Source: a virus. Taken from it: a stretch of DNA of 46,727 bases. Under the pieces are notes generated by a model. The model had not been told where the DNA came from, ran no database searches, and saw only the letters and a list, made by a program, of their open reading frames with translations. The number at the start of each line of letters is the position of its first letter. Within the stretch, counting starts at the first letter, position 1. This document shows positions 8,567 through 29,689 of this stretch, piece after piece. The stretch spans positions 1 to 46,727 of the IMG/VR virus record IMGVR_UViG_3300031251_000038. One strand, written 5' to 3'. The position numbers were made by a program, and so were the translations under genes.

Positions 8567-8901
8567 TGAGTCGAAACAAGCCTGTCCTATATTGGACACT
8601 AAAAGCCGAGTTTATGCATCGCTGTAGTGTCTTTGCTGTTACACAAGTCGGATTGCACCAGATTTATGGTCGCAATGAAAATAATCAATCGTCGCATTGC
8701 GCTAAACGTGATCTTTACGGTAAATTTGATACTAAAGAAGCTGCTGAAGCTGCTATTGATCAATATATGAATATTAAGGATAAACACAGGCCAGATATTG
8801 AAGCGGCTGCACTTGCGTATCGCAAGACAACTGAAGCCGAAGCCAAAGAGCTTGATAAATACCTCAATCAGATAGGTGACTTATGCTTAAGTGGTTCGTA
8901 G
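8566..8901 (+). CDS. Hypothetical protein (111 aa)
   Basis: 111 residues. The N-terminal half looks like a small beta domain (VLYWTLKAEFMHRCSVFAVT) and the C-terminal half is helical (EAAEAAIDQYMNIKDKHRPD, then YRKTTEAEAKELDKYLNQIG). No family recognised. The start is coupled to the upstream stop (TAATG) and the end overlaps the next miniprotein. Confidence 0.55.
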   Translation: MSRNKPVLYWTLKAEFMHRCSVFAVTQVGLHQIYGRNENNQSSHCAKRDLYGKFDTKEAAEAAIDQYMNIKDKHRPDIEAAALAYRKTTEAEAKELDKYLNQIGDLCLSGS

Positions 8902-22686: not shown

Positions 22687-25600
22687 GTGGCTGAACGTGG
22701 CGCTGGTCAACCGAAGACACTATTAACACCGTCACAGGTAGAAGTTGGCTATGGTCAAACTCTATCTTCGAGGGGTAATGGTAATAATAATCAAGCAGGT
22801 TGGTTCGGGCCACTAACACCGCTCGCGCCTATTGCTCCTAAACAGGTTACTGGTCGTCAGTGGGATTTTATTTCCGGTTATAATATTGTTGTTAAACCGC
22901 GAACATATGAGCCTATTAGCTTTGAGCAACTCCGTGCTCTTGCTTATTCCTATGACTTATTACGCCTAGTCATTGAAACCCGAAAGGATCAGATTGAGCG
23001 TATTAAGTGGACTTTTCGCGCGAAAGAGGGAAAGAAAGTCTCGGATGCGCGCCTTCAGAAAATTACTAATTTTTTTCATAAGCCTGATGGTGAGCATGAA
23101 TTTACTGTATGGCTTCGTGCTATTATTAATGATTTACTTATTCTTGATGCACCTACTTTATGGAAAGAACGTAATCGTGGTGGTCAATTAATCGGCTTAC
23201 ATTGGATGGACGGTGCTACTATTAAGCCGGTCATTGATGATTGGGGTCGTACACCTAAACCATATACCGAGAACGGTCAGCTTATTATTCCGCCTGCTTA
23301 TCAGCAAGTAATTAAAGGCTATCCTGCTATTGATTACACGGCTGACGAACTTATTTACAAACCGCGTAATTTACAGACTACAGGGCCGTATGGTCTTGGT
23401 CCTGTAGAACAAATCGTTATGACGGTTAACATCGCGTTACGTCGTCAGCTTGGTACACTTGATTACTATACTGAAGGCAATATTCCTTCGGCTTTAATTG
23501 GTGTTCCTGAGACATGGACTCCTGATCAAATTAAGAACTTTCAAGACTACTGGGATGCTTATTTTGAGGGTGATTTAGCTACTCGTCGTAGAGCCAAGTT
23601 TGTTCCCGGCGGTGTTGCTAAAACCTTCATTGCTACAAAAGAACCTGAGTTAAAGAATGTTTTTGACGAATGGTTGGCGCGCATAGTTTGCTATGCATTT
23701 AACGTATCCCCACAGGCGCTAGTATCGCAACAGAATAGAGCAACGGCAAATACACAAAAGGAACTTGCTGAGGAAGAGGGGCTGCACCCACTATTAATGT
23801 GGGTAACACGTCTTATTAATGGTGTTATTGAAGACGATTTAGACGAACAGGATGTAGAACTTGCAATTGGTGATGATACGCAGATTGCGCCTACAGATGA
23901 AGCTACCATTTTAGTTGCTTATTCCGGTGCTGCTATTCTTACGAAGAACGAAGTTCGTCAGCGACTCGGAGAGGAACCTGTAGCTACACCGGAAGCCGAC
24001 CAACTTGGTTACACTACCGCTACCGGCTTTGTGCCGCTTGATAATACGTTGAAACCGCCGCCATTGCCGCCGCTTGCACCTGTAGGGCCGGACGGTAAAC
24101 CTGTGCAACCTAAGTTACCTAATGCGCCGGTTAAAACCGCTAAAGAGGGTAATGATAAACCCGCTAAGAATCCTGATAGCAATAAAGATGCTGAGAAGTT
24201 AGCTAAGGATATTGATGCTAGCGGACATAATCATGGTGCTGGTGGACGCTTCGCACCTAAGAACGATGGTATGACTGCTGCCGAGCGCCGTAAAGCTAAA
24301 CGTCGTGCTAAGAATGGTGTTACTGAAACAGCTAGTGGTCATCTTCGTGATAAGGCTGGTAACTTACGTAGTTCTGACGGTACATTCGTACAAGGTCAAG
24401 CAACGTCAACTAAAGATTTTCGTGAGAAATTAGCTAGTGCTGCTAAGAAAGCTATCTCTGGTGCTGCTATACTTGGTGGTGGTGCGGCTATTGCTGCGGT
24501 ATTAGCCCCGTCAGCAATTGGTTTGCCGGCTGTAGCTCTTACTCTTGCGGCGGCCGGTAAAATTGGTGGACATTTACTTTGGTCGGCTGCTGAAGAAGCT
24601 TTGGGTGCTGTATTAGATGAAATGGGCGTTGATAAAGCTATTGCTGGTACAGTAATTGATCCTATTGTGCATACGGTAAAAGAGAGCGTTGCTACTCAGT
24701 TTGGAAAGGTTAATAAAGCTTCACCTGTTCATGAAGCTAATCAAGCTGAGTATGACTATGCTATGGATATTGCTCAAAAGTTTCTACCCATATTCTTTGA
24801 GCAATTCTTTGATAAACTAGAAGAAGCTATTGATAATGAAGCGCCAGATATGGATACTGATACGCGCGATAGCTTATCGGATATGTTTGGTGAGATGGAG
24901 CAAACTGCGCTGGATGCTATAGCTACTACTAACACAGAAAAGGTGAGTAAGAGTGACGATTTTTTTCCGCTAGGGACTACACTAGACGCACTCTTTAATA
25001 AAGCCGCGCGCCGCATCGCGCCGCTGCCCTTTGATCGTCCGGCGACGCGCAAGGCGCACAAAGCCGTGCGAGCGCGCGTCGCTGGCGCGCTTAAGGCCGC
25101 TTGGAGCAAGGTGAGGCCGGTGCTACAAAAGAGGCTTGCCAGCGAGGCGGAAAAGCTCGCCAAGGCCGATAATTACGATCTATCAGCGATTGACAGTATT
25201 GATATTAGTGATGATATTTCGCCATTAGCATCTGATAGTGCTACGTCAGCATTAGCGCAAGTCGGTCCCGATGTTGAGGGTAGCATAGTTAATCAAGTTA
25301 ACAGCCGCGCCGTTACATGGGCACAAAAACAAGCAGCCGCACTTGTGGGTAAAAGGGTGTTAGCTGATGGAACAGTAATTGATAATCCTAATTCTGAGTA
25401 TTCAATTACAGATACCACTAGAGATTTAATTAGAGATAAGATTGCAAATGGATTAGCAGATAATATAGGCACACAAGCTATTATAGATAGTATTGAGGAA
25501 GAAGGTTTTAGTGAGGATAGAGCTGAGTTAATAGCACAAACCGAGATTGGTAATGCTAATTCAGCCGGAGCACTTATAGGCTATCAAGGCGCTGCCGAGT

Positions 25601-25785
25601 CTGGTATACGGGTAAAAAAGGCTTGGCTTACAACTGGCGACGCTAAGGTAGACAGTGACATTTGTAAGGCTAATGAGGATCAGGGGCCGATTGACTTAGA
25701 TGATAATTTTCAAAGTGGTCATAGTAAGCCTCTTGGGCATCCTCGCTGCCGCTGTAGTCTCATACCTGTCGTAGTTGAGGATTAA
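22687..25785 (+). CDS. Portal protein fused to a MuF-like C-terminal domain (1032 aa)
   Basis: 1032 residues with a GTG start; typical portals are 400-550. Residues about 75-440 are a portal of the HK97/SPP1-like type: YDLLRLVIETRKDQIERIKW near 89-108, the FNVSPQALV segment near 338-346 and an EEEGLHPLLMWVTRLI helix near 360-375. A Pro-rich linker follows, then a basic stretch, then a hydrophobic Gly/Ala-rich segment at about 588-630 (AILGGGAAIAAVLAPSAIGL). The C-terminal 60 residues end GHPRCRCSLIPV with an upstream DICKANEDQG, the MuF minor-head signature. The fusion would place a MuF domain on each portal subunit. A GC-rich island covers residues about 771-826. Confidence 0.85.
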   Translation: MAERGAGQPKTLLTPSQVEVGYGQTLSSRGNGNNNQAGWFGPLTPLAPIAPKQVTGRQWDFISGYNIVVKPRTYEPISFEQLRALAYSYDLLRLVIETRKDQIERIKWTFRAKEGKKVSDARLQKITNFFHKPDGEHEFTVWLRAIINDLLILDAPTLWKERNRGGQLIGLHWMDGATIKPVIDDWGRTPKPYTENGQLIIPPAYQQVIKGYPAIDYTADELIYKPRNLQTTGPYGLGPVEQIVMTVNIALRRQLGTLDYYTEGNIPSALIGVPETWTPDQIKNFQDYWDAYFEGDLATRRRAKFVPGGVAKTFIATKEPELKNVFDEWLARIVCYAFNVSPQALVSQQNRATANTQKELAEEEGLHPLLMWVTRLINGVIEDDLDEQDVELAIGDDTQIAPTDEATILVAYSGAAILTKNEVRQRLGEEPVATPEADQLGYTTATGFVPLDNTLKPPPLPPLAPVGPDGKPVQPKLPNAPVKTAKEGNDKPAKNPDSNKDAEKLAKDIDASGHNHGAGGRFAPKNDGMTAAERRKAKRRAKNGVTETASGHLRDKAGNLRSSDGTFVQGQATSTKDFREKLASAAKKAISGAAILGGGAAIAAVLAPSAIGLPAVALTLAAAGKIGGHLLWSAAEEALGAVLDEMGVDKAIAGTVIDPIVHTVKESVATQFGKVNKASPVHEANQAEYDYAMDIAQKFLPIFFEQFFDKLEEAIDNEAPDMDTDTRDSLSDMFGEMEQTALDAIATTNTEKVSKSDDFFPLGTTLDALFNKAARRIAPLPFDRPATRKAHKAVRARVAGALKAAWSKVRPVLQKRLASEAEKLAKADNYDLSAIDSIDISDDISPLASDSATSALAQVGPDVEGSIVNQVNSRAVTWAQKQAAALVGKRVLADGTVIDNPNSEYSITDTTRDLIRDKIANGLADNIGTQAIIDSIEEEGFSEDRAELIAQTEIGNANSAGALIGYQGAAESGIRVKKAWLTTGDAKVDSDICKANEDQGPIDLDDNFQSGHSKPLGHPRCRCSLIPVVVED

Positions 25786-25786
25786 A

Positions 25787-26002
25787 ATGACTATATCATA
25801 TGTTCTAGTTAAACTAGTTGACAACAAAGATATGGTTGTAAACGGCGTCTTTAGCTCTTTAGAAGCAGCTATGATCTACTGCTTAGATGAATATGAAGCG
25901 GTAGTAGAGTTTGTAACAGATAAGAGCTACGAGAATACTACTGAATTTAAAGTATATACGGTAAATAATCCGCAAGGTATCTTAGCTCAAGGAATAAAAT
26001 AA
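25787..26002 (+). CDS. Hypothetical protein between portal and protease (71 aa)
   Basis: 71 residues from the ATG at 25787, with GAGG upstream. An ATG at 25775 lies inside the portal gene. A small alpha/beta protein (TISYVLVKLVDNKDMVVNGV, then SLEAAMIYCLDEYEAVVEFV). It shares its last base with the start of the protease gene. No family recognised. Confidence 0.5.
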   Translation: MTISYVLVKLVDNKDMVVNGVFSSLEAAMIYCLDEYEAVVEFVTDKSYENTTEFKVYTVNNPQGILAQGIK

Positions 26003-27987
26003 TGACTAATCTTAACCTTTTTATTCCTCTCACTAAGATTGATGAGGAAAAGCGTTTAGTTTATGGTGTTGCTACTGCCGAAGTTAAAGATCGTACTGGC
26101 GAAATTTGTGATTATGCGACTACCAAGCCGTATTATGAGGCGTGGTCTACTGACGTGCATAAAGCTAGTGGCGGTAAAAGTGTCGGCAATTTACGCGCTA
26201 TGCACGGTAAGATTGCAGCCGGTAAGATTACTGATATTGCATTTGATGATACTAATAAGAAGATTGAAATTTGTGCTAAGGTTGTTGACGATCAAGAATG
26301 GAAGAAAGTTCTTGAAGGCGTTTATACTGGATTTTCGCAGGGTGGTGCTTACGTTAAGAGATGGGATGACCCCACAGACTCTACAATTAAGCGATATACT
26401 GCCGATCCTACTGAAGTCTCTTTGGTTGACGTACCATGCCTAAAGACTGCTACTTTTGAAGTCATTAAGGCTGATGGTCAAACAGAAATGAGAAAGTTTC
26501 ATACTAAGGAAGAAACTGTGTCACAGCCTACTAATGATGAAGTTGCCGCTAAGGCCGTGGAACTCGCTAAGGTTGCGGGCGATGAGACTAAGTGGGCTGG
26601 TTTTATTGACGCGGCGAGAGAAGAATTAGTTAAGGTTACTGAGCCTGCTACACCGCCTATTATTGCTACTACCGCTGAAACCATTGTTGAAAAGACTACT
26701 GAAGTTGCTATCGACAATGATGTTAAGCAGGTTTGGCAAGCTCGCGACGGTAAGACCTTCGCTAAAAAAGCGGAAGTTATCGCTTATCATAAGCAACTTG
26801 ATACGGAAGCCTTAGTTAAAAATACTTCAGCACCGGCGTTAGCCGCGCTTGAAAAGATTACTGCATTATTAGCTACTGATACAGCTACTACTACCGAAGT
26901 TACCGAAGTCGCTAAAGTTGACGAACCGGCGGCGGATGGAGATAATGCTGATCATACAGCATTAAGTACACAACATCGTGCAGCGTCAAAGGATTTCACT
27001 AAGAAAGCCAATGATCATGCGACCGATGGAAACGCGAAACAAGCCGGTGCGCAGCGAGACAATGCCCGTGCTCATGACGATGCTGCTGATTTACACGATC
27101 ACGCTAATGCTTTGCAGACTGCTAATCATCCCGATGCTGCGAAGGCTACTAAAGATGCATATTCGGCAACTGATAAAGCTAATCAGAAAACTGGGACAGC
27201 CATTAAGTGTAGTAAAGTTGCAGAGCATAGCGATTTGCAAAAAGGCTTACCTACGGTTGCGGAACTGGCATATCTTATCGAGCGATTAAAGTATATTGGT
27301 TCGGCTGTTCATATGGAAGCGAAGCAGGAAGGCGACGACTCGCCCCTGCCGGGAAAGCTTCATACGAATGTTGCCGATCTTTGCGATACGCTTAATGCAA
27401 TGTGCCTTGAGGAAACAGCGGAACTTATTGCCGGTCAAAATGTTGACGATATTAATAATGTCCCTAATGTTTTCAATATGGCCGCCGGCATGGCTGAAGG
27501 GCGCTTTGACGCGCTTGTGAAGTATGTGGGTATTACAGACTCACTTGAGAAACTTCGTCCTACGCTTGAAAAAGTTGGAGCTGCTATTAGTGCAGCCAAT
27601 CATACTAAGATCCAACAGGCTCATGACGCACTTCTTGAATTAGGAGCGATTTGCGGCGGTAAAGATGCGACAGAGCATGTAACAGAAAAGCATGTTCACG
27701 CAGATGAACTTACTAAAGCGCTTGAGAAGTCTGATGCACTACAAAAAGCGTTTAATGAAGTTACCGATAAACTTCAGACCATCACCGTTGACATTGAAAA
27801 GTTAAAAACGCAGCCGGTGCCGCGTCCTAATTTGCGCGTGGTAAATAAGGGCGACGATTTAGGCTTGCCGTCTCGCGATGATGCTGATATTATCAAAGCG
27901 TATAATGCTTTAAGTCCCGAAGAAAAGAGCTTAATGCTTATTAAAGTTGCGCAGTCACTTCCTCAGAATGCGTTGTCTAGGGGCTAA
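26002..27987 (+). CDS. Prohead protease-scaffold fusion (661 aa)
   Basis: 661 residues. The first 155 look like a phage maturation protease: GVATAEVKDRTGE at 22-34, a candidate catalytic His in AMHGK (H68), GVYTGFSQGGAY with S112, and the DPTEVSLVDVPC segment (135-146) that follows the catalytic Ser in HK97-type proteases. Residues about 160-430 are acidic and Ala-rich, including a His/Ala/Asp-rich low-complexity stretch near 330-395 (FTKKANDHATDGNAKQAG). The C-terminal third is helical, with a coiled coil near 580-610. This fits a protease with an internal scaffold. Protease identity is inferred from spacing of the His and Ser motifs. Confidence 0.65.
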   Translation: MTNLNLFIPLTKIDEEKRLVYGVATAEVKDRTGEICDYATTKPYYEAWSTDVHKASGGKSVGNLRAMHGKIAAGKITDIAFDDTNKKIEICAKVVDDQEWKKVLEGVYTGFSQGGAYVKRWDDPTDSTIKRYTADPTEVSLVDVPCLKTATFEVIKADGQTEMRKFHTKEETVSQPTNDEVAAKAVELAKVAGDETKWAGFIDAAREELVKVTEPATPPIIATTAETIVEKTTEVAIDNDVKQVWQARDGKTFAKKAEVIAYHKQLDTEALVKNTSAPALAALEKITALLATDTATTTEVTEVAKVDEPAADGDNADHTALSTQHRAASKDFTKKANDHATDGNAKQAGAQRDNARAHDDAADLHDHANALQTANHPDAAKATKDAYSATDKANQKTGTAIKCSKVAEHSDLQKGLPTVAELAYLIERLKYIGSAVHMEAKQEGDDSPLPGKLHTNVADLCDTLNAMCLEETAELIAGQNVDDINNVPNVFNMAAGMAEGRFDALVKYVGITDSLEKLRPTLEKVGAAISAANHTKIQQAHDALLELGAICGGKDATEHVTEKHVHADELTKALEKSDALQKAFNEVTDKLQTITVDIEKLKTQPVPRPNLRVVNKGDDLGLPSRDDADIIKAYNALSPEEKSLMLIKVAQSLPQNALSRG

Positions 27988-27993
27988 TAACTA

Positions 27994-28152
27994 AGACGCT
28001 ACGGCGTCTAGGGGCTACCATACCGGAGACGGAAAAACGGTAGTCCCGCAACTAATTCCGCTAGATCGGAGACGATCTAAACTATTAACAGACTAAGCCC
28101 GGCTGGTTACTTGGAAAGTAAACGCCGCGCGCCGGAGACGGTAGCGAAAGCC
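27994..28152 (+). ncRNA. Structured RNA leader before the major capsid gene
   Basis: The 184 bases between protease and capsid genes hold successive hairpins. AGACGC-TACG-GCGTCT (27994-28009) has a UNCG-type loop. GGGCTACC (28012-28019) pairs with GGTAGTCCC (28039-28047) with one bulge, enclosing CCG-GAGA-CGG. TAGATCG-GAGA-CGATCTA (28062-28079) is a perfect 7-bp stem with a GNRA loop. GTTACTT-GGA-AAGTAAAC (28106-28123) has one bulged A. A third CCG-GAGA-CGG is at 28132-28141. The 8-mer CGGAGACG thus occurs three times, each time forming a GNRA tetraloop. GTCTAGGGGCTA is repeated at 27975 and 28006. A cis-acting leader or processed RNA is inferred. No known riboswitch class is recognised. Confidence 0.6.
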
Positions 28153-28171
28153 ACTCTCAAGGAATAAAACA

Positions 28172-29689
28172 ATGCCTAATATTCAGTCTACTACTCAGGA
28201 AATTATTGACGCTATTCGTAAGTCGCAGGCTTCGCGTATTAATGATCCCTACTTACAGTCTATTGGACTTGAAAAGTCCACCTTTAATCAGCCGGGTTCG
28301 GCTGTTTCAGGTCTTAACTTCTATGATCTTGAAGCCGGTGCTAAGTTCCTTGTGCCGGTGCTTACGCCGTTGCGCAATGAAATTCCGCGCGTTTCTGGTA
28401 AGGGCGGTATTCAGGCTAACTGGCGCGCTATTACTGCTATTAATACAACTGGACTTCGCATTGGCGTGTCTGGCGGTAATCGTGGCGGCGTGATGGCGAT
28501 TAGCACGACCGACTATACTGCGGCTTATAAGGGCATTGGTCTTGAATCCAGTGTTGACTTTGAAGCGCAGTATGCTGGTATGGGCTTCGATGATATTCGC
28601 GCGCAGGCTGCTTTACGCGGTATGCAGGCGACTATGATTGGTGAAGAACAAGTCCTGCTTGGTGGTAATGGTAGTCTTGCTCTTGGCACGACTCCTACTC
28701 CATCGCTTACTGCGGGCGCGGCTGGCACGATTGTCGGAACTGTTACAGTTTCGGTTATTTGCGTGGCTCTTACGCTTGACGGTTTCGCTAACGGCTCTGT
28801 TGCTGGCGGTATTCAAGCTCAGATTACACGTACGAATGCTGATGGTTCTAGCGATACATTTGGCGGTGGTTCGGCTCAAAAGTCAGTTGCGGCTTCTGTG
28901 TCCGTTACTAGCTCCACGGGTTCGGTTGCGGCTACTGTCGCGGCTGTTACCGGCGCTTTCGGCTATGCGTGGTTTTGGGGTCCGGTTGGTAGCGAAGTGC
29001 TTGGTGCGCTTACTACTATTAACTCCATTGTTATTACTACCGCTGCTGGAACTGGTACGCAGACTGCGGCTTCTATGCCTACTACTGACTGGTCGGTTAA
29101 CAATCTTGTGTTTAACGGCTTGTTGACTATTTCGGCGCAAAACCTTGGTGCTTACTACGCTACTCAGGCTACTGGTACTGCTGGAACTGGTACGCCTCTT
29201 ACTGCCGATGGTGCCGGCGGTATTGTTGAAATTGATACAGCGCTTAAATCGTTTTGGGATAACCGTCGCTTGTCGCCTGATACAATTTGGGTTAATAGTC
29301 AGGAAGCCCTTAATATCTCTAAGAAGATTCTGGCTGGCAATTCTACTGCCGCGCAGCGCTTCGTCTTTGATAGTAAGCAGGACTTCTTGGGCGGCGGTGT
29401 TATGGTTCGTACTTACCTTAACCGCTTCTCTATGGCTGGCGCGGCTACACTCGATATTAGAGTGCATCCGAATATGCCTGCTGGCACGATCCTGTTCGAC
29501 TCTAAGACTATTCCATACCCGCTGTCTGGTGTGGGTAACGTCCGTCAGGTTCGCACACGTCAGGACTACTATCAGATCGAATGGCCGTTGCGCGCCCGTC
29601 GCTATGAGTATGGTGTTTATGCTGACGAAGTGTTGCAGCATTACTTCCCGCCTGCGATGGGTGTTATTACTAACATCGCTAACGGTTAA
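28172..29689 (+). CDS. Major capsid protein
   Basis: 505 residues, long for an HK97-fold capsid. AAGGAAT precedes the ATG. The N-terminal 170 residues include RNEIPRVSGKGGIQANWRAI and an E-loop-like SGGNRGGVMAISTTDYT. The C-terminal third (FWDNRRLSPDTIWVNSQEAL, then ending LRARRYEYGVYADEVLQHYF) matches capsid proteins of other phages with this architecture. A Thr/Ser/Ala/Gly-rich insertion at about 175-330 looks like an added beta domain displayed on the shell. Strong GC-leaning codons, a structured leader and a good terminator after it all suit the most abundant virion protein. Confidence 0.75.
   Translation: MPNIQSTTQEIIDAIRKSQASRINDPYLQSIGLEKSTFNQPGSAVSGLNFYDLEAGAKFLVPVLTPLRNEIPRVSGKGGIQANWRAITAINTTGLRIGVSGGNRGGVMAISTTDYTAAYKGIGLESSVDFEAQYAGMGFDDIRAQAALRGMQATMIGEEQVLLGGNGSLALGTTPTPSLTAGAAGTIVGTVTVSVICVALTLDGFANGSVAGGIQAQITRTNADGSSDTFGGGSAQKSVAASVSVTSSTGSVAATVAAVTGAFGYAWFWGPVGSEVLGALTTINSIVITTAAGTGTQTAASMPTTDWSVNNLVFNGLLTISAQNLGAYYATQATGTAGTGTPLTADGAGGIVEIDTALKSFWDNRRLSPDTIWVNSQEALNISKKILAGNSTAAQRFVFDSKQDFLGGGVMVRTYLNRFSMAGAATLDIRVHPNMPAGTILFDSKTIPYPLSGVGNVRQVRTRQDYYQIEWPLRARRYEYGVYADEVLQHYFPPAMGVITNIANG

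Follow-up and report, generated by a model that had tools for sequence, protein, structure and literature searches.

GRRA-tetraloop hairpins in the major capsid gene leader of tailed phages and a candidate partner module in the protease-scaffold protein

A hairpin with a GRRA tetraloop recurs upstream of the major capsid gene

The 46,727-nucleotide (nt) IMG/VR virus record IMGVR_UViG_3300031251_000038, which was analyzed over its entire length and is referred to here as the window, harbors three short hairpins with GAGA loops in the leader of its major capsid protein (MCP) gene. Comparison with related phages indicates that these belong to a hairpin with a GRRA tetraloop which recurs in dozens of divergent alphaproteobacterial phages and is a real RNA element of no described class. 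On balance, we are inclined to believe that it functions as a cis-acting RNA operator in the head-gene mRNA, the partner of which would be the preceding protease-scaffold protein, acting through a small finger module, and the function of which would be to tune MCP output.

Hundreds of relatives of the MCP were present in IMG/VR, 80 of which were fetched for comparison of their leaders. Hairpins were counted as CG[GRGA]CG with a stem of at least 3 base pairs (bp) in the 350 nt upstream of the MCP start, a region which contained 43 hairpins in the sense versus 1 in the antisense orientation; the remainder of the 640 kb derived from these relatives contained 20 and 9, respectively. Across 79 de-duplicated upstream regions, the top tetraloop hairpins overall were cgGGGAcg (40 occurrences) and cgGAGAcg (16), no enrichment of other GNRA loops being apparent before the MCP. 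Positive leaders carry one to three copies, mostly two, which are often 28 to 31 nt apart, lie at a variable distance from the MCP start (about 40 to 250 nt), and seldom overlap the Shine-Dalgarno region. Whole-record scans revealed the motif to be concentrated at the MCP leader, several phages of approximately 60 to 67 kb possessing exactly two copies of CCGGRGACGG genome-wide, both in that leader, and GRRA hairpins were found in a phage with a GC content of 43% as well as in phages with 65% GC.

The association was also recovered by searches of IMG/VR which did not start from the MCP. A pattern search for single hairpins returned 18 matches, of which 17 preceded the MCP and the remaining one was close to the end of a contig. 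A scan for pairs of CCGGRGACGG, from which pairs at in-frame spacing (of which there were many on viral contigs) had been left out as probable coding repeats, retrieved 30 clusters before this MCP and 29 elsewhere, most of the latter belonging to long reading frames or to unrelated repeats of high GC content and few being noncoding. The named hosts of the MCP family are mainly Alphaproteobacteria, and the hairpins are present in prophages of Methylobacterium and of Bradyrhizobium sp. Tv2a-2 and in the cultured Brevundimonas phage Polewnik.

Stem covariation and loop types

Evidence that the element acts as RNA was obtained from its flanks. Among 87 distinct instances, unselected for stem continuity, complementarity at flank positions 1 to 5 amounted to 95, 71, 62, 68, and 67%, each value exceeding the maximum of 300 partner shuffles, and flank pairing of the same core located elsewhere was near chance. 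Within orthologous tandem leaders, compensatory double changes were observed in 12 cells versus 2.1 upon shuffling (for example, CCTTGCCG/CGGTAAGG, CCATGCCG/CGGTATGG, and CCTCATCG/CGATGAGG), and whereas 94% of cells were paired in register, no more than 53% were after the partners had been slid. A covariance model constructed from the tandem-leader clade recovered an independent copy in relative L139 (E value of 7.5e-6). These stems constitute a conserved, covarying cis RNA structure beside its presumed target gene, as would be anticipated of an operator. A preliminary description, made from the window alone, had suggested selected RNA structure before the capsid gene and had made that suggestion dependent on compensatory changes among relatives; the strand bias and the covariation together bear it out. 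A DNA operator composed of direct repeats for a transcription factor was considered and rejected, as the spacings between copies (19 to 84 nt) exhibit no helical phasing and the flanks covary as stems.

The loop sequence is strand specific and is enclosed by invariant C-G/G-C closing pairs, GGGA being the commonest loop, GAGA the next, and GGAA a rare form of Methylobacterium prophages. A single loop type per phage was evident in 45 of the 50 phages with at least two hairpins (shuffled mean of 26 and maximum of 37 in 20,000 shuffles), and within the Polewnik clade several lineages carry GAGA in both hairpins, their neighbors carrying GGGA in both. Such uniformity is the pattern expected of one factor reading all copies, although common descent contributes to it too.

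Hairpins in the MCP leader of the window

In the window, the core CGGAGACG occurs at positions 28024 to 28031, 28067 to 28074, and 28133 to 28140, all three copies being on the plus strand and within 117 nt, with no further copies in the whole 46.7 kb. The first GRRA hairpin (28011 to 28047, plus strand) consists of a 9-bp lower stem, in which 28011 to 28019 pairs with 28039 to 28047, an internal loop, and a CCG[GAGA]CGG tip with a 3-bp stem, the core of which is kept in relatives. The second (28062 to 28079, plus strand) forms a continuous 7-bp stem, TAGATCG[GAGA]CGATCTA, which departs from the usual CCG tip with pairing preserved, and the third (28126 to 28146, plus strand) comprises a 4-bp GCCG[GAGA]CGGT tip on a CGC/GCG stem with a bulged A, the same bulged-A stem being present in L005 and L013. 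The leader additionally contains a UNCG-type hairpin, AGACGC[TACG]GCGTCT (27994 to 28009, plus strand), which has so far been seen in this phage only, and a 12-nt direct repeat, GTCTAGGGGCTA (27975 to 27986 and 28006 to 28017, plus strand), the first copy of which provides the last codons of the protease-scaffold gene and the second of which sits 3′ of the UNCG hairpin stem.

The three copies of CGGAGACG, the TACG hairpin, and the repeat had all been placed correctly in the preliminary description. The enclosing stem mentioned there does surround a GAGA hairpin, namely, the first, and has 9 bp and an internal loop, not 8 bp and a bulge. Of the structure for which selection had been suggested, it is the GRRA hairpin that is conserved; no conservation of the UNCG hairpin or of the 12-nt repeat was found in the relatives inspected.

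The region, taken as 231 nt, folds at −73.8 kcal/mol versus −59.3 kcal/mol for shuffled sequences (z score of −3.4), 1 of 200 shuffles being as good. The count of CGGAGACG is in itself weak, 0.93 copies being expected per window and three copies being reached in 6 of 100 shuffles, and because three copies are nonsignificant by count, the case for the element rests on the relatives. In the window, as in the majority of leaders, the GRRA hairpins lack a trailing T-run, and no direct similarity was found between the leader DNA and phage records. The earlier impression that no described class applies was upheld in Rfam 15, in which no family reached the gathering score in the window and none had an E value of up to 10 at positions 27950 to 28200.

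Certain relatives display additional structures in this leader. A long stem capped by the first GRRA hairpin precedes a T-run in L005, L013, and L018 and resembles an intrinsic terminator; among the GRRA leaders, only these three combine a GC-rich hairpin with a U-run. In prophages L054, L067, and L074, which lack GRRA hairpins, REP-like long inverted repeats occupy the protease-MCP gap. In the Polewnik clade (L088, L099, L057, L253, and kin), the leader segment GCAACGAGGC is complementary to MCP codons ~10 to 20, GCCTCGTTGC/GCCTCGCTGC, and it is possible, judging from the complementarity, that these form a long-range stem around the hairpins and the ribosome-binding site.

Co-occurrence of the hairpins with a finger module of the protease-scaffold

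The protease-scaffold gene of the window (26002 to 27987, plus strand) specifies a product of 661 amino acids (aa) with a PHROG head maturation protease match. Its N-terminal ~170 aa represent the head maturation protease and are followed by an extra middle region, and a conserved C-terminal part (aa ~413 to 657) is presumed to serve the scaffold role. The gene upstream of the MCP encodes about 580 to 830 aa in hairpin-carrying phages and about 300 to 470 aa in most others, the short forms retaining the protease (window aa 1 to 170) and the C-terminal part (aa 413/516 to 657) with the middle missing. This middle region contains a candidate RNA-binding domain of ~33 aa, the beta-beta-alpha finger module (26719 to 26817, plus strand; aa ~240 to 272), with the consensus V-x-Q-V-W-x-x-x-D-G-x-x-F-x-K-K-A-D-A-x-x-H-x-x-x-L, in which Q, W, and the helix-start K (Q243, W245, and K256 of the window) are invariant across 59 sequences. 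An AlphaFold2 model of the module comprises a beta-hairpin followed by a long helix (core predicted local distance difference test [pLDDT] score of ~93) and matched mostly C2H2 zinc fingers in Foldseek, one of them from a WT1 RNA complex, with E values above 1, which are weak because the domain is so small. Cys2His2 metal ligands are absent from the module alignments, and Pfam zf-C2H2 remained below the cutoff. Based on the model, a nucleic acid-binding role for the module is plausible. Diverged modules are encoded by L252, L318, and L313, and alignment of the finger residues of GAGA and GGGA phages yielded no clear determinant of loop type.

Among 106 relatives, module and hairpin were both present in 31 and both absent in 71, several prophage clades lacking the two; the module alone was found in none and the hairpin alone in 4, three of which (L058, L188, and L249) are contigs cut before the module and one of which (L003) is a true exception. 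Of the complete rows, 93 of 94 agree on module and hairpin, with 8 and 7 changes on the MCP tree. The reverse search of IMG/VR, by module alone, yielded 62 loci, 49 of them distinct and with sequence to judge, in which a hairpin was detected automatically in 39 and in 41 after inspection. In L405, L411, L417, L384, and L388, the module open reading frame is separated from the MCP gene by at least hundreds of bases, and a hairpin is still located ~55 to 65 nt before the latter; the position of the hairpin is, therefore, tied to the MCP start, and simple linkage along the DNA to the gene for the module does not suffice as an explanation.

Because the hairpins co-occur with its finger module, the protease-scaffold is the likely partner, rather than the MCP. 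The preliminary description had listed capsid autoregulation among its possibilities; a regulatory RNA is retained here, with the partner reassigned from the MCP itself, and the link between module and hairpins, which was absent from that description, is new. Two other candidate partners were rejected. An accessory gene product is disfavored in that the genes shared with motif-positive relatives are mainly structural, few others being common to them and the window. The second, a conserved helical segment at aa ~175 to 225 (module i; PTNDEVAAKAxELAKAAG...), precedes the finger in most hairpin phages, but its presence does not follow that of the hairpins, L001 possessing it without hairpins and L006 and L139 representing the reverse.

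Several loci depart from these associations. L139 carries tandem GAGA hairpins (8794 to 8858) between a diverged MCP gene and a head-tail connector gene and possesses the finger module. L410, L422, L431, and L436 encode a diverged MCP and a diverged finger module and have no GRRA hairpin; these phages may use another RNA element.

Proposed mechanism and alternative explanations

We propose that the leader is a cis-acting operator within a polycistronic head-gene mRNA, the operator unit being a short GRRA-tetraloop hairpin on an invariant 5′-CG/CG-3′ tip, in one to three copies. Produced from the same mRNA immediately ahead of the MCP, the protease-scaffold would be the trans-acting partner through its ~33-aa finger, which is free of zinc ligands. 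Binding of unassembled protease-scaffold to the hairpins, which precede the MCP ribosome-binding site, would make MCP output (how well the MCP portion of the mRNA is translated or how long it persists) dependent on how much free scaffold is available, the signal being ended by assembly and by self-proteolysis of the protease. Activation or stabilization is favored over repression, because the hairpins, which seldom reach the Shine-Dalgarno region, mostly stop tens of bases or more short of the start codon and because a surplus of free scaffold calls for more MCP. Binding of the hairpins by the protease-scaffold, regulation of the MCP, and the sign of that regulation are what we infer from co-occurrence and loop concordance.

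A number of observations weigh against this proposal. The well-supported branches provide only three independent contrasts, all three of which agree (P = 0.25), and module and hairpins are ~1.2 kb apart, such that block inheritance could mimic functional linkage. L003 has one hairpin and no module, and 8 of the 49 judged module loci, mostly those with diverged MCPs, have no hairpin. In L139, the hairpin pair is located downstream of the MCP gene instead of upstream. L001, which is nearest to the window and falls within its sister group, no longer carries the hairpins and retains only a degenerate module; since it kept the capsid operon, the hairpin-module system is dispensable. The C2H2 matches of the finger, with their weak E values and missing metal ligands, must also be counted here.

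The principal alternative, which relies on the same interaction, is that the RNA serves as an assembly factor: the hairpins would tether the protease-scaffold to the MCP mRNA such that the procapsid nucleates where the MCP is translated, expression level being beside the point. Co-occurrence, the reverse search, and loop concordance serve this explanation equally, its partner is an assembly protein rather than a dedicated regulator, and it would tolerate both the variable distance to the MCP start and the downstream pair of L139. Most copies are, however, upstream near the MCP start and are kept there despite insertions, which initiation control fits better, and we regard tethering as unlikely. 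The same low probability is assigned to a host-factor site or an element of mRNA stability or processing, in which case the finger would accompany the hairpins solely because the head-gene cassette is inherited as a block. GNRA hairpins can stabilize mRNA, and the short distance between module and hairpins, the few independent contrasts, and the paucity of shared genes beyond structural ones are all compatible with this explanation, but phages that have lost both parts still possess the C-terminal segment lying between them, so a single deletion cannot account for their co-loss. The hairpin, moreover, tracks the MCP when its distance to the module changes, loops switch in a coordinated manner, and the distribution of module i, a neighbor of the finger, does not match that of the hairpins.

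A transcriptional role, as a partial intrinsic terminator or an antitermination (nut/put-like) site between the protease and MCP genes, is suggested by the long stem and T-run of L005, L013, and L018 and by plain terminators in the protease-MCP gap of other relatives. It is considered very unlikely given that the window and most leaders have no T-run, that no boxA-like partner was recognized by eye, that the site is not at the start of the operon, and that the loop is confined to GRRA. Chance, or mobile REP-type repeats, could be invoked in view of the GC-rich hairpins and REP-like repeats in the gaps of some prophage relatives (L054 and L074) and of the nonsignificant motif count of the window, yet the element has one orientation and one locus per genome, covaries, and occurs in both 43% and 65% GC phages. 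The 43-versus-1 strand bias, flank pairing above that of shuffles, and compensatory changes refute this explanation, to which we attach almost no probability.

Organization of the head-gene region

The MCP gene of the window (28172 to 29689, plus strand) encodes a 505-aa protein of phrog_13692 and is separated from the protease-scaffold gene by 184 nt. The protein is 32% identical across 155 aa to the annotated MCP of Arthrobacter phage Sonali, and its model (pLDDT of only 58) matched the SU10 and HK97 capsids in Foldseek with a probability of up to 0.99 and a best E value of 1.6e-3; the MCP is, by predicted fold, HK97-like. Although listed as being of unknown function, phrog_13692 represents an HK97-like MCP of phages and prophages of mainly Alphaproteobacteria. 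Further upstream, positions 22687 to 25785 encode a portal protein (1,032 aa) with a Mu gpF-like head morphogenesis domain fused to its C terminus.

Comparison with described systems

The coat protein operators of RNA phages (MS2, PP7, and Q-beta) are short hairpins with a specified tetraloop, frequently interrupted by a bulge or internal loop, that adjoin a head gene, and the element described here is alike in these respects; their ligand is a virion assembly protein, as is the candidate ligand here. The present element differs in belonging to double-stranded DNA (dsDNA) tailed phages, in its loop (GRRA, not AUUA), in its candidate ligand (a protease-scaffold finger, not a levivirus-fold coat protein), and in occurring as one to three copies upstream of the capsid gene with no overlap of a replicase start. 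The combination of AUUA-type loop, 5′ bulged A, and replicase-start overlap which marks a levivirus coat operator is not seen, the loops being only GGGA, GAGA, or GGAA and upstream of the MCP. In phage P22, scaffold supply feeds back on late-gene expression posttranscriptionally; there, the scaffold controls its own synthesis, the proteins are unrelated, and we know of no defined hairpin for this autoregulation, which was reportedly described by Wyckoff and Casjens in 1985, a study cited in PMC5744158.

The boxB site of lambda N likewise presents a GNRA-like loop on a short stem to a phage protein. It is a pentaloop with a GNRA fold, functions together with boxA in early operons, and is recognized by an arginine-rich peptide, whereas the present hairpin has a tetraloop, precedes a late head gene, and occurs in one to three copies, placing it outside the lambda-type nut/boxB sites. 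In CsrA/RsmA targets, too, several hairpins with loops rich in G and A are found in the 5′ leader, but CsrA needs ANGGA in the loop; here, the GGA register differs among GAGA, GGGA, and GGAA loops, the GAGA loop containing no GGA. The finger module may resemble RNA-binding C2H2 zinc fingers (WT1 and TFIIIA) in its predicted beta-beta-alpha fold and its aromatic and basic pattern but has no Cys/His ligands and is a single finger within a phage protease-scaffold. A survey of the literature on phage capsid leaders, GNRA hairpins, and RNA-binding prohead proteases returned nothing relevant.

Implications

The balance of scaffold, protease, and capsid protein produced from one mRNA in tailed phages is mostly explained by the strength of ribosome-binding sites. 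We consider the chances evenly balanced that the hairpins and the finger constitute a previously unrecognized RNA-protein pair of tailed dsDNA phages, in which a metal-free protease-scaffold finger would read GRRA hairpins on the capsid mRNA, the assembly state would set capsid synthesis (or the RNA would nucleate assembly), and self-digestion would end the signal. Brevundimonas phage Polewnik, as a cultured phage carrying the hairpins, allows testing, and a compact tetraloop-reading finger could also serve as a tethering tool. If true, the proposal would define a class of RNA operator acting on a head gene of dsDNA phages, for which a candidate binding domain can already be named.
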